Shown piece by piece: positions 25,276 to 29,930 of a DNA stretch of 64,000 bases; position 1 is the first letter of the stretch, and every line of letters begins with the position of its first letter. The notes under the pieces are model-generated. The model did no database searches and had not been told where the DNA came from. It saw only the letters and a list, made by a program, of their open reading frames with translations. The position numbers were made by a program, and so were the translations under genes. Source of the stretch: Haloarcula halobia (GTDB taxonomy: Archaea > Halobacteriota > Halobacteria > Halobacteriales > Haloarculaceae); assembly GCF_029338255.1 (NCBI RefSeq), contig NZ_CP119787.1, positions 1,426,001 to 1,490,000 on the forward strand. Direction: 5' to 3'.

Positions 25276-27351
25276 ATGACGCTTACATTCGAACCACTCG
25301 ACGACCAGTCGGGGCTGGCAGTCATCGACCGGGTCGAGCGACAGCGCTACCGCATCCACACCCCCGAACCCGTCGCCCCGCGCCCGACGGCCGCGGATTC
25401 GTTCCTGTTCCCGGTCGGGGACGCGGTGACGATTCGGACCCGTTCTATCGTGCTCCCGACGGTCGTTCCCGTCTACGTCCGCGACGCTGGGGGGTCGATG
25501 GTCGCCGAGGTCACGCAGTTCGACAGCCAGACTCTCCCCGACGGCGAGTACAGCCTCGACCTCTGTACGCGCATCAAGACCTACCTGCGCGTCGAGTCTG
25601 CGTTCGAGGTCAGCGTCGACATCGACCGGACGCGCGTCGAGTTCGAGGAACCGACCGAGGTCCGAATCGGCGCCCGCTCGCGCCACGACCGGCCGGCCGC
25701 GACGGTCACGACGACGGCGGACCCCCGCGACGTGATGGCGGCCGTCGAGACGTTCGGGTCGGCGCTGAAGACGACCGACCCGGAGCGGTCGTACCCGACG
25801 CTGCGGGGCCACCCGCCGGCGCTCGAACTGGGCGACTCGCTGTCGATTCCGTCGAGCGTCGAGCGGCCGGAGACGGGGGTCACGCTGGAGCTCCCCCCGC
25901 GACTCGTGTCGGTGTTCGTCGCGGCGCCGCTTTCCTACTACCTCGGCGCGCGACTCGTCCCGTCTTCGACGCCGCGGCTGACGACCGAGACCGGGTTCGA
26001 GTACGCGCTTGACTCGCCCCGCGGGTTCGAGACCGAGGTCGAACGGACATTGAAACAGCTGTTCTTCCTCGACTGCGTGACTCGCACCGAAGGGTACTAC
26101 GAGATAGACCTGCACGAGCGAACCGCCATCGAACCCTACGTCGACCTGGACTTCGCGAGCCTGTACGACCGGCCGCTCGCCGAACAGGTTGGCGCGTACC
26201 TCGATGTCCCGTACGAACTCATCGAGGAGCACATCCCCGAGTGGCGACTGACGACTCACGTCGAACCCACCGCGGCCAACGCCGAGCAGTTGCCCTTCGT
26301 CGTCGACGACCTGGCGGTCGTCCGGACCCACGACCACCGACAGCGGACCCGGGCGACGGTGCCCGCGGAGGTCGAGGCCGAGTTCACCCGCGACGACGTC
26401 ATCACCCGGTCGGCCAGCGCCAGCGACGGGCCGGCCGCAAGCGAGTACGTCGAACCGACCTCCGAGGGCACCCTCGAACAGGCCTGGATCGGCGAGCGCA
26501 TCCCCATCGGCGCGAGCAAGCTCACCGTCGAGGCGTTCCTGAACCGCCTGAACCGGGAGAACACGGACGAGGACATCTCCATCACCGTCGTCCAGAACGA
26601 CGCCCGGATGGACGCCGAGCGGCAACTCGTCGACGACGTCTATGGCACCCGGTCGGACCTCCCGTTCGACATCAGGGCCCACAAGAACCTGACGACGGCC
26701 GAGCTGACCGACGTGCTCACCGGCCGGTGTGATTTCTTCCACTACATCGGCCACACGGATCGGGAGGGGTTCACCTGCAGCGACGGGAAGTTAGATGCGA
26801 CGACGCTGGACTCGGTCGGTGTCGACACGTTCCTGCTTAACGCCTGCAACTCCTACCACCAGGGCCTGGGGCTCGTCGAACACGGGGCCATCGGCGGCAT
26901 CGTCACGCTCAACGAGGTGGTCAACGAGCGGGCGGTCCGCATCGGCGAGACCATCGCGCGCCTGCTCAACGGCGGGTTTCCGCTCCGGGCGGCGCTGACC
27001 ATCGCGCGCGAGCAGAGCGTGATGGGCGGCCAGTACATCGTCGTCGGAGACGGTGGCATCACCGTGACTCAGACGGCCGGCGGTGCGCCGAACCTCCTCG
27101 ACATCACTCCGGTCAGCGATGGGTTCGAGGTCGAGATCCAGACGTACTCCACGGACGACCGCGGGCTCGGGACCATCTTCATGCCGTTCCTGGAGGCAAC
27201 CGAGACGTACTACCTGAGATCCGGGACCATCGATACGTTCCACGTCTCGAGACCCGAACTCGCGCAGTTCCTCAGCATGGAGGAGGTTCCGGTCCGCATC
27301 GACGACGAGCTGTACTGGAGTACCTCGGTGGACCTGGACGGCGTTCTCTGA
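25276..27351 (+). CDS. CHAT-domain protease (caspase/separase-like)
   Basis: 691 residues from MTLTFEPLDDQSGLAV. The first 450 residues are a haloarchaeal region rich in beta strands without a domain I can name. The C-terminal CHAT domain carries both catalytic residues: His493 in FHYIGHTD (first His 489) and Cys524 in LLNACNSYH, 31 residues apart, as in active CHAT cysteine peptidases. GAIGGIVTLNEVVNE and ARLLNGGFPLRAAL follow, as is typical. It therefore looks catalytically competent. CHAT proteases act in gasdermin-like defence, type III-E CRISPR and programmed cell death in bacteria; what this one cleaves is unknown. A tiny membrane-peptide gene is convergent 84 bases beyond its stop. Confidence 0.85.
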   Translation: MTLTFEPLDDQSGLAVIDRVERQRYRIHTPEPVAPRPTAADSFLFPVGDAVTIRTRSIVLPTVVPVYVRDAGGSMVAEVTQFDSQTLPDGEYSLDLCTRIKTYLRVESAFEVSVDIDRTRVEFEEPTEVRIGARSRHDRPAATVTTTADPRDVMAAVETFGSALKTTDPERSYPTLRGHPPALELGDSLSIPSSVERPETGVTLELPPRLVSVFVAAPLSYYLGARLVPSSTPRLTTETGFEYALDSPRGFETEVERTLKQLFFLDCVTRTEGYYEIDLHERTAIEPYVDLDFASLYDRPLAEQVGAYLDVPYELIEEHIPEWRLTTHVEPTAANAEQLPFVVDDLAVVRTHDHRQRTRATVPAEVEAEFTRDDVITRSASASDGPAASEYVEPTSEGTLEQAWIGERIPIGASKLTVEAFLNRLNRENTDEDISITVVQNDARMDAERQLVDDVYGTRSDLPFDIRAHKNLTTAELTDVLTGRCDFFHYIGHTDREGFTCSDGKLDATTLDSVGVDTFLLNACNSYHQGLGLVEHGAIGGIVTLNEVVNERAVRIGETIARLLNGGFPLRAALTIAREQSVMGGQYIVVGDGGITVTQTAGGAPNLLDITPVSDGFEVEIQTYSTDDRGLGTIFMPFLEATETYYLRSGTIDTFHVSRPELAQFLSMEEVPVRIDDELYWSTSVDLDGVL

Positions 27352-27435
27352 GCGGGCGCCGCTGGCGCTTCTCTGCGGTATCGACCGGAAAAATCCGCGC
27401 TGTTGTCCGTGAAACGTGCGTCGCTGGTGGTCGTT

Positions 27436-27570
27436 TTATGGGCCGCTGATAGCTGCGTTGTTCGCCGCCGCCGCGTTCCCTGCCTGCGTCAGCAGGAGGA
27501 GGACGGTGAACAGGACGCCGGCCATTCGTGGGTGCTCTGCGAGGTACTTCGCCATTGTACTGTCTGACAT
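27436..27570 (-). CDS. Hydrophobic microprotein, DUF7503-like (44 residues)
   Basis: The reverse-strand reading starts MSDSTMAKYLAEHPRMAGVL, continues with a hydrophobic run FTVLLLLTQAGNAAAA and ends ISGP. One membrane segment with a small-residue C-terminus suggests a membrane-inserted or exported peptide, perhaps cleaved after AAA. I recall the haloarchaeal family DUF7503 with the same HPRM-G-LF--LLLLTQAGN core. The start is preceded by an AT-rich promoter (TATTTAATTT at about 27,600-27,611). It ends 84 bases from the convergent CHAT gene. Confidence 0.75.
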   Translation of the reverse strand: MSDSTMAKYLAEHPRMAGVLFTVLLLLTQAGNAAAANNAAISGP

Positions 27571-27960
27571 GGTACGACCTGACTGTCGGGAGATGGGAAA
27601 TTAAATATTTTTGATTGTAACCTACATATATTTACTAATATTAAGTCGCTAATAACTGCGATTTCGGTGCCCGCTCACCATTCCGGCCCGAGAGCCGGTC
27701 CAGCGACCGATTCGCCTCCGGTGGCTGTCACGACGACAGTTGGCCTCGTGTCCCCGCTCGGCCTCGTAGCGGCCCCGGTCCGGCGCGACCTACCAGTATC
27801 GTTTTGTGACTCCCTACACAACTGGAGTCCAGACTATTCGACAGATGGCTCTCTCCAGCACTTACATCGCGGGCGAACCGGCGGCATCTTCGCGACGGTC
27901 TCGCGGGTCGGGCGGGACCGTCGGCGCGCCGCGGCCGTCGCGCGAGCGAGGGGTGGCACG
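27571..27960. promoter_or_regulatory. AT-rich divergent promoter region
   Basis: Bases 27,600-27,660 are strikingly AT-rich for this genome, with several TATA-like stretches (TTAAATATTT, ATATATTTACTAATATT). They can serve the microprotein on the reverse strand and the receiver-PAS gene on the forward strand. The rest of the spacer is GC-rich; a 39-codon reading (27,845-27,964) ends over the start of the receiver-PAS gene (ATGA), but its sequence is not protein-like enough to call. Confidence 0.45.
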
Positions 27961-28887
27961 ATGACGGGGGACCGGGTCCTGCACCTGGACGGGGAGACGG
28001 TCAGGCTCTCGCGGTCCGTCCTGCACAACAGCACACGGGCGGCCGGTCACGACGCACCCCTGTTGCGGACGGAGTCCACAGACCAGCCCACCGACAATGC
28101 CATCGAGGTGCCCGTCCCGCTCGCGAAACTGCGCGAGGAGCGTACGATCCGCGTCCTGCACGTCGACGACGACCCGGACCTCGGCGAGATGGTCGGCACG
28201 TTCCTGGAGCGAATCGACGAGGATCTGACCGTCGTCACCGAGACGAGCGCCGTGGCGGCGCTCGAACACGTCCGCGAGGGCGACGTCGACTGCGTGGTCA
28301 GCGATTACCAGATGCCAAACACCGACGGCCTTGAGCTGCTTGAGCTGGTGCGCGACCAGCACCCGGACCTCCCTTTCATCCTCTTTACCGGCAAGGGCAG
28401 CGAGGAGATCGCGAGCGAGGCCATCGCGGCCGGCGTCACCGACTACATGCAGAAGGGGACCGGGACCGACACGTACGAGGTACTCGCGAACCGGGTGCGA
28501 AACGCCGTCGAGCAGTACCGGACCGAACAGCAGTTCTGGAGCGCGCTCTCGTGGTACCAGCGCCTGGTCGAACAGGAGCTGGCCGGGGTCTGTATCGTCC
28601 AGGCCGGTGAGTTCGTCTACGTCAACCAGCGACTCGCCGAGATTCTCGGGTACGGTCAGGACGAACTCGTCGGCCAGCCCCCCTCGTTCGTCGTCGGCAC
28701 CGACCGGGCCGACTCCCTGGAGGTGCTCCAGACCCCAGACGATGACCAGGCCGATTCCTTCGAGACCGAGTGCACCGTCCTCCGGGCAGACGGCGAGTCG
28801 GTCACCATCGAGGTCTCCGGCGGGGCCATCGAGTACGACGGCGACCCGGCCTGGATCTGTGTCGCCCGGGAACGCGACGACGCGTAG
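27961..28887 (+). CDS. Response-regulator receiver and PAS-domain protein
   Basis: 308 residues from the ATG at 27961. After a 60-residue non-conserved N-terminus, a receiver domain (about 62-180) has VLHVDDDPDLGEM, the phospho-acceptor Asp in CVVSDYQMPNTDGLELL, and FTGKGSEEIASEA with the conserved Thr/Lys pattern (a GKGS form common in haloarchaea). A PAS domain follows at about 195-305 (GVCIVQAGEFVYVNQRLAEILG). No kinase or DNA-binding output domain is present, so it is likely a signalling intermediate. The reading frame is open about 98 codons further upstream, but that part is not protein-like. Confidence 0.85.
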   Translation: MTGDRVLHLDGETVRLSRSVLHNSTRAAGHDAPLLRTESTDQPTDNAIEVPVPLAKLREERTIRVLHVDDDPDLGEMVGTFLERIDEDLTVVTETSAVAALEHVREGDVDCVVSDYQMPNTDGLELLELVRDQHPDLPFILFTGKGSEEIASEAIAAGVTDYMQKGTGTDTYEVLANRVRNAVEQYRTEQQFWSALSWYQRLVEQELAGVCIVQAGEFVYVNQRLAEILGYGQDELVGQPPSFVVGTDRADSLEVLQTPDDDQADSFETECTVLRADGESVTIEVSGGAIEYDGDPAWICVARERDDA

Positions 28888-28892
28888 CGGGT

Positions 28893-29930
28893 CTACACCT
28901 TGACGAGGACCTTGATAGCCTCCCGCTCGTCCATCGCGCGGTAGCCTTCCGGGACGCCCTGGAGGTCGACCGTCTTCGTGAACACCGGCGCGGGGTCGAG
29001 CACACCCTGCAGGACGTCGTCCATCAGGTCCTCCACGTAGGCCCGGACGGGTGCGACGCCGCCGGCCAGCGTGATGTTGTCGCTGAACAGCGAGTACAGC
29101 AGGTCGCCACCCTCGACGCCGTAGGGGACGCCGACGTAGCCGATCGTCCCGCCCGGCCGGCAGACGTCGACGGCCGTCTCCATCGACGACTGTGCCCCGA
29201 CACACTCCAGTACGTGGTCGACGCCGCCGGCGGTCAGCGCCTCGACTTCACGGACGGCCTCGTCGCCGCGACTGGAGACGACGTCGGTGGCGCCGAACTC
29301 CTCGGCCAGTTCGAGGCGGTCCTCGTGGTGGCCCATCGCGACGATGCGGTTCGCGCCGAGGCGCTGGGCCGCGAGCACGCCACAGAGGCCGACCGCACCG
29401 TCGCCGATCACCACGCAGGTGCTCCCCTGCTCGACGTCGGCGCTGACCGCTGCGTGGTGGCCCGTACACATCACGTCGGTCAGCGGGAGCAGCGACTCGA
29501 GCATGTCCTCGTCGTCGGCGTGTCGGTCGGGCACCCGGACGAGCGTCCCGTCGGCGTACGGGACCCGGACCTTCTCGCCCTGCGCGCCGTCGTGTTCGCC
29601 ACCCCACCCCTCGTCCTCGATACAGGAGGTGTAGATACCCTTCCGACAGGGCCCGCACTCGCCGCAGCTGATGGCAAAGGGCGAGAGGACGCGGTCCCCG
29701 ACGTCGACCGAGTCGACGTCGTCGCCCACCGCCTCGACGATGCCCATCGGTTCGTGGCCGGTTCGCCACCCCTCCTCGTAGTCCCGCTCGCCGCGGTAGA
29801 ACCAGAGGTCCGACCCGCAGACGGCGGTGTGCGTGATTCGGACGACGGCGTCGGTCGATGCCTCGAGCTCCGGGTCCGGAACTTCCTCGACGCGAACGTC
29901 TCGCGTGCCGTGGTAGACTGTCGCTTGCAT
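28893..29930 (-). CDS. Zinc-dependent alcohol dehydrogenase family protein
   Basis: 345 residues of the medium-chain dehydrogenase/reductase family. Catalytic zinc ligands are Cys in TAVCGSDLW, HE in GHEPMG, and Asp in the TDVMCTGHHAA stretch. The structural zinc loop CGECGPCRKGIYTSC has all four cysteines. The nucleotide-binding Rossmann segment is CVVIGDGAVGLCGVLAAQ. The GHHAA region and the missing long insertion of FdhA suggest an alcohol or sorbitol-type enzyme of unknown substrate. It is convergent with the receiver-PAS gene. Confidence 0.88.
   Translation of the reverse strand: MQATVYHGTRDVRVEEVPDPELEASTDAVVRITHTAVCGSDLWFYRGERDYEEGWRTGHEPMGIVEAVGDDVDSVDVGDRVLSPFAISCGECGPCRKGIYTSCIEDEGWGGEHDGAQGEKVRVPYADGTLVRVPDRHADDEDMLESLLPLTDVMCTGHHAAVSADVEQGSTCVVIGDGAVGLCGVLAAQRLGANRIVAMGHHEDRLELAEEFGATDVVSSRGDEAVREVEALTAGGVDHVLECVGAQSSMETAVDVCRPGGTIGYVGVPYGVEGGDLLYSLFSDNITLAGGVAPVRAYVEDLMDDVLQGVLDPAPVFTKTVDLQGVPEGYRAMDEREAIKVLVKV

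Follow-up and report, generated by a model that had tools for sequence, protein, structure and literature searches.

A caspase-fold protease of Halobacteriales paired with a convergent gene for a Gly-Pro-tailed microprotein

CHAT and caspase-like proteases activate bacterial gasdermins, and separase is kept in check by securin, a partner that acts as a tail-like pseudo-substrate. PatX represents peptides whose active part is a C-terminal motif. HetF itself, from heterocyst-forming cyanobacteria, is a CHAT protease in a signalling context (PMC8406250). In Craspase the TPR-CHAT protease Csx29 is tied genetically to a dedicated partner, its substrate Csx30 (PMC10028731), and the orthocaspase MaOC1, a caspase homologue from a prokaryote, acts on what a small gene next to its own encodes (PMC7935541). 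Our search of the open literature for DUF7503, DUF7504 and the CHAT domain in haloarchaea returned nothing, and we found no paper that names the protease family described here.

We analysed a 64,000-nucleotide stretch (the window) of Haloarcula halobia contig NZ_CP119787.1. At an ordinary chromosomal locus, it carries a gene for a CHAT-fold cysteine protease of 691 residues (positions 25276–27351, forward strand, ATG start). The catalytic dyad is formed by His493 (codon CAC, 26752–26754, forward) and Cys524 (codon TGC, 26845–26847, forward), which sit in GH and NxC contexts, respectively. Both residues were unchanged in an alignment of 14 homologues and again in a set of 68 at 45–70% identity. 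Searches with the window protein gave no match in Pfam, NCBIfam, PADLOC or the PDB sequences, the last searched with both the single sequence and a profile. The window protein and its genome fall below the threshold of the Pfam CHAT model PF12770, which matches 14 of the 68 homologues at E <= 0.05 (best 7e-5), and two plasmid homologues are named in RefSeq as "caspase family protein" and "CHAT domain-containing protein". Because the larger protein has no sequence-database match, the original CHAT call rested on a reading of motifs.

The fold was examined with an AlphaFold2 model of the 691-residue protein (pLDDT 86, pTM 0.87). Against known structures, residues 321–599 of the model match SAVED-CHAT, separase, gingipain and TPR-CHAT. 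Foldseek returned SAVED-CHAT 8tl0 (E 6e-7) and separase 5fby (E 3e-6), while VIA gave Z scores of 17.4 against separase 5fc2 and 14.5 against the Craspase TPR-CHAT. By these matches, the caspase/separase-like protease unit spans residues 322–599 (26239–27072, forward). It is preceded by an N-terminal region (residues 1–321; 25276–26238, forward) modelled as a β-sandwich (about residues 1–137) followed by an α/β part, and is followed by a β-rich C-terminal domain (residues 600–691; 27073–27348, forward) that is fast-evolving as judged by column entropy. Residues 1–325 modelled alone reached a pLDDT of 94. This region is possibly regulatory; as a known sensor it was rejected, its carbohydrate-enzyme-like β-(super)sandwich matches being weak and at noise level (best Z 8.3). 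An earlier note on this DNA had left the first 450 residues unassigned, which is too long a stretch given that the separase-like unit begins near residue 322. Its claim of an intact CHAT enzyme is borne out by the presence of both catalytic codons, the invariance of the dyad among the 68 homologues and the caspase-type fold of the model. The model and the dyad together place the window protein in the CHAT/clan CD fold, with predicted peptidase activity.

The closest described systems differ from this locus in identifiable ways. Craspase shares a CHAT-fold His/Cys protease tied to a dedicated partner, and its TPR-CHAT protein aligns with residues 335–594 of the window protein at a VIA Z of about 14. 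Unlike in Craspase, neither a CRISPR effector such as a linked Cas7-11 nor an RNA trigger nor a TPR region was seen here: the window protein has no TPR match in Pfam, and the recurrent neighbours of 80 loci of the family are not CRISPR genes. Moreover, the Craspase partner lies in an operon, whereas the partner in the window family is convergent and usually a short tail-bearing peptide. The SAVED-CHAT filament protease (PDB 8tl0) is the best CHAT match by fold, over residues 429–599, but the N-terminal half of the window protein is a β-sandwich plus an α/β part that was not identified as SAVED. Separase (PDB 5fc2, 5fby) gave the highest VIA score, over residues 322–598, but differs in size, partner and N-terminal architecture, and no cohesin link is seen. 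HetF has TPR and transmembrane segments, in contrast to the modelled N-terminus of the window protein, and the likeness to HetF/PatX is an analogy, with no sequence relation of the partners shown. MaOC1 is a p20 orthocaspase lying by a ParE/ParD module, whereas the window system has a single convergent partner gene. By the features tested, the window system is not Craspase, a gasdermin system, a HetF-type system or a catalogued defence system.

The partner is a 44-residue microprotein encoded on the reverse strand (27436–27570) that matches DUF7503 (PF24335) with E=5e-23 and 80.9 bits against a Pfam gathering cut-off of 27. As the earlier note had described, the gene is convergent with the CHAT gene, their stop codons lying exactly 84 bp apart, and an AT-rich stretch that is a candidate promoter lies upstream of it (27571–27660, reverse). 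At CHAT/DUF7503 loci, the stop codons usually come close to touching, with a median of 3 bp between them (range −16 to 127). The microprotein ends in the tail ANNAAISGP (27439–27465, reverse), with Gly-Pro just before the stop. In a set of 102 distinct DUF7503 C-termini, all ending in Gly-Pro, Ala predominates at positions −10 and −11, position −8 is most often Asn (51/102) and positions −3 to −7 are small or variable. The tail is of near-constant length, as the distance from an LF motif to the C-terminus is 24–25 residues in 90 of 94 DUF7503 proteins. Across relatives, the Gly-Pro end is written with all four Gly codons and all four Pro codons, is followed by all three stop codons and closes 33 different 9-mers. 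This diversity rules out a signal in the DNA itself, for example a terminator, and the constraint on Gly-Pro therefore acts at the protein level. The tail is conserved but not absolute, since about 13 DUF7503 proteins, mostly from one Haladaptatus clade, lack the final Gly-Pro and end in GGTIS, GGTIR or SGI. One genome has two tandem DUF7503 genes next to one CHAT gene (G056:C1:486534-486796). Another (G180) has at least five dispersed, near-identical DUF7503-like open reading frames in a conserved stretch of ~200 bp; none of the three that were read (L223, L227 and L231, around 1498–1638) has a CHAT gene close by, and they look like copies of a small dispersed element or like decoys.

The two genes pair widely and tightly. 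Among 392 Halobacteriales genomes, a relative of the protease was found in 364, some of which contribute a CHAT2 paralogue only, and DUF7503 in 331. In 31 sampled Halobacteriales genomes, all 34 DUF7503 genes adjoin a CHAT gene in convergent orientation within about 250 bp, and the same pairing was found at all 30 of the best DUF7503 loci. DUF7503 lies directly 3′ of the CHAT gene at 72 of 80 named CHAT loci, a figure that is biased on its own because these are the best-scoring loci. A further set of 169 non-redundant CHAT loci with enough downstream DNA, which deliberately takes in genomes without DUF7503, comprised 123 with DUF7503, 21 with another convergent open reading frame ending in Gly-Pro and 25 with none. 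Thus, the pairing of CHAT protease and microprotein that the earlier note had drawn from one locus holds across haloarchaeal genomes, where DUF7503 is not found mostly away from CHAT, nor CHAT mostly without DUF7503.

Within the genus of the window, presence of the two genes is concordant in 26 of 26 genomes (both in 21, neither in five). In four of the five genomes without the pair the site is cleanly empty: CHAT, DUF7503 and a receiver-PAS gene are all absent, and the flanking DUF5788 and AN1 zinc-finger genes adjoin (95 bp apart in L235). Chance adjacency is ruled out by the 34/34 and 30/30 pairings and these empty sites. The receiver-PAS signalling gene (27961–28887, forward; start codon chosen by us) contains Response_reg and PAS domains by Pfam and is gained and lost with the pair; its orthologue occurs only in pair-bearing genomes among those tested. 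The unit has a G+C content of 66%, compared with 70.5% in its flanks. A zinc-type alcohol dehydrogenase gene (28893–29930) lies between the receiver-PAS and AN1 zinc-finger genes in the window. It is missing at other pair-bearing loci of the genus (L240, L241) and is thus not part of the unit. Around the 80 named loci, HalX response regulators lie near CHAT at 15, and at about 29 a DUF7504 (PF24336) gene lies directly upstream of CHAT on the same strand, mostly 70–210 bp away (e.g. L072:7139-7861). This suggests that DUF7504, CHAT and the partner constitute a three-gene module in many families. The receiver-PAS, HalX and DUF7504 neighbours also suggest that the response is wired to signal transduction rather than to phage defence.

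Loci without DUF7503 identify which part of the partner is shared. Of the eight named loci that lack it directly 3′ of CHAT, five have another convergent open reading frame ending in Gly-Pro: repeat frames of the type TADGN..GISGP in two Haloplanus loci (L077, L097), frames ending in ACTYSGP in two Halococcus loci (L103, L104) and one with ambiguous bases ending in SGNAGP (L086). In another (L071), DUF7503 is displaced by 1.4 kb and a block with a response regulator is inverted; the remaining two are a contig end (L128) and a locus with no partner (L124). The genus g76, which we infer from matching loci to be Haloplanus, lacks DUF7503 and has a repeat-form partner in all five sampled genomes. 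These partners consist of 2–13 tandem 13-residue units with no membrane segment. Between neighbouring repeat units, synonymous codon differences far outnumber non-synonymous ones (67/11 in L097, 15/0 in L143, 23/2 in L147 and 10/1 in L146), and differences among the listed unit variants are confined to the first one or two residues. Because the differences are mostly synonymous, each 13-residue unit is kept by strong purifying selection on the protein sequence. In the CHAT tree the repeat-partner loci are nested inside DUF7503-paired clades; therefore, these partners retained the tail and had their membrane part replaced.

Diverged partners with a hydrophobic segment and a Gly-Pro end occur at L148/L149, L153, L158, L189, L190, L194 and L204, and short Gly-Pro-ending partners without a good membrane segment occur at L168/L169 and L200, as they do in Halococcus. 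Overall, a Gly-Pro-ending convergent frame is present at 21 of the 46 CHAT loci without DUF7503, versus 2.3% of random windows of the same size; a few of these 21 (such as L164 and L187) may be chance. One genome (G251, L189–L198) carries CHAT in about 12 diverged copies, and most of these are accompanied by a signal-peptide-like partner of their own; the tails of these partners differ, with Gly-Pro at the end or a few residues before it. The partners thus have the C-terminal tail in common, whereas a membrane part is optional.

The 25 loci with no partner are largely a CHAT2 clade, a tandem triplet, contig ends and distant relatives. The second CHAT paralogue in L142 (L142:6077-8200; G000:C1:2296379-2298169) has 35% identity, intact His and Cys motifs and no convergent partner. 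It lies directly upstream of a TbsP-type regulator, and the partner-less CHAT2 clade is common to many genomes. Three tandem CHAT genes with no Gly-Pro-tailed partner occupy L199:572-7809. The protease also has distant relatives in a family outside Halobacteriales (L185–L188, E about 1e-65), and these have no convincing partner.

Our preferred explanation, to which we give a nearly even chance, is a two-gene module of a protease and a dedicated ligand, in which the convergent small gene would encode the cognate peptide partner and the CHAT protease would bind its tail as substrate or pseudo-substrate; binding, cleavage, the direction of regulation and the cellular outcome are what we infer. 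The part that matters would be the C-terminal tail of about 9–13 residues with its Gly-Pro end, and the hydrophobic segment before it would be dispensable, serving only to anchor or export the tail. The CHAT protease most likely binds this tail, and its cleavage or release may switch a downstream response tied to signal transduction. The tail is read as the cognate CHAT ligand because it is kept while anchor, length and repeats vary, because the dyad is invariant and because the genes come and go together. Against the ligand reading stand the roughly 13 DUF7503 proteins without Gly-Pro, and the partner-less CHAT2 clade and triplet, whose dyads are intact. If the transmembrane form is inserted N-in, the tail would also be extracellular, separated from a protease in the cytoplasm. 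Coevolution gives no support either. In mutual information over 123 pairs, the strongest couplings for tail positions −3 to −8 lie mostly on the CHAT C-terminal domain, but a test of co-change along the branches of a tree built without that domain found no excess, with a mean Z of −0.3 and Z>3 in 1 of 539 pairs. Tail–protease coevolution was accordingly rejected, and the raw signal was attributed to shared ancestry and column entropy.

An unlikely alternative is a secreted peptide signal, pheromone-like or akin in spirit to PatX/HetF. Here the microprotein would be a precursor cut at a conserved [AV]-A-A to release a short Gly-Pro-ending peptide, with CHAT as intracellular responder or processing enzyme. 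Positions −12 and −10, counted from the C-terminus, agree with the −3,−1 rule (A/V in 80/102 and A in 92/102) at a near-constant distance to the end, and the diverged G251 partners combine a positive n-region, a hydrophobic core, AxA and a Gly-Pro end. Paralogues within one genome bear different tails, and the 13-residue repeats resemble multi-copy peptide precursors. However, although most transmembrane partners have an AxA-type site, the Haloplanus repeats and the partners without a transmembrane segment have no export signal. The N-terminal motif [HN]PRM.G.LFT is also conserved to a far greater degree than a plain signal peptide requires, and no receptor or importer was identified.

Slightly less likely is an inhibitor or antitoxin, in which the tail would fill the CHAT active site as a pseudo-substrate and keep a toxic protease off, the repeats providing a higher dose or avidity. 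Such a role would fit the strict pairing and joint loss, the short tail with its fixed end and the purifying selection on each unit. It sits poorly with the partner-less CHATs that have an intact dyad (L124, the L199 triplet and the CHAT2 clade), with a convergent layout unlike that of most toxin–antitoxin operons and with the dispersed partner-like copies away from CHAT (L223, L227, L231).

The leading idea of the earlier note was suicide defence. PADLOC gave no match for the window protein and two stray single-member matches among the 68 homologues, and no relative turned up among IMG/VR viral contigs or phage records, so a defence or viral origin was rejected. This absence of any link to known defence genes, together with the near-universal presence of the family in chromosomes, argues against ordinary suicide defence. 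A gasdermin-like effector, in which CHAT would remove the tail so that the membrane peptide makes pores and the cell dies, is therefore very improbable: CHAT/caspase-like proteases do activate gasdermins and most partners keep a conserved hydrophobic segment, but the 44-residue partner matches DUF7503 only and has no gasdermin domain, and a good membrane segment is missing from the partners in Haloplanus, Halococcus, L200 and L168/L169. With several partners keeping the Gly-Pro tail only, the proposal that the membrane segment is the active part is weakened, and its being optional argues against a simple pore.

Haloferax volcanii extracts have strong caspase-like (IETDase) activity to which no gene has been assigned, and caspase-like activity has also been reported in Halorubrum, Haloarcula, Pyrococcus and Sulfolobus (PMC3615174); of 114 archaeal genomes surveyed for caspase homologues, only 5 had any (PMC3501461). 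All named Haloferax loci have the CHAT/DUF7503 pair, as do the named Haloarcula loci, and DUF7503 is present in Haloferax volcanii, our control genome. We hypothesize that the CHAT family is the source of the orphan Haloferax volcanii activity, for which it is a strong candidate. For Pyrococcus and Sulfolobus the CHAT family gives no evidence, and the activity reported there would have to come from other genes. Taken as a whole, the picture of a near-universal haloarchaeal switch without described counterpart, linked to receiver-domain signalling, in which a caspase-family protease reads a paired Gly-Pro tail carried on a membrane microprotein or on tandem repeats and accounts for the caspase-like activity, is a tentative and rather doubtful one. 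The window protein belongs to an overlooked family of caspase-type proteases; it is invisible to the Pfam CHAT model, yet has a homologue in 364 of the 392 Halobacteriales genomes, counting those with CHAT2 only. The exchange of the membrane microprotein for tail-only repeats marks the tail as the element to test, and the question of the orphan caspase activity becomes testable through a single pair of genes in an archaeon amenable to genetics.
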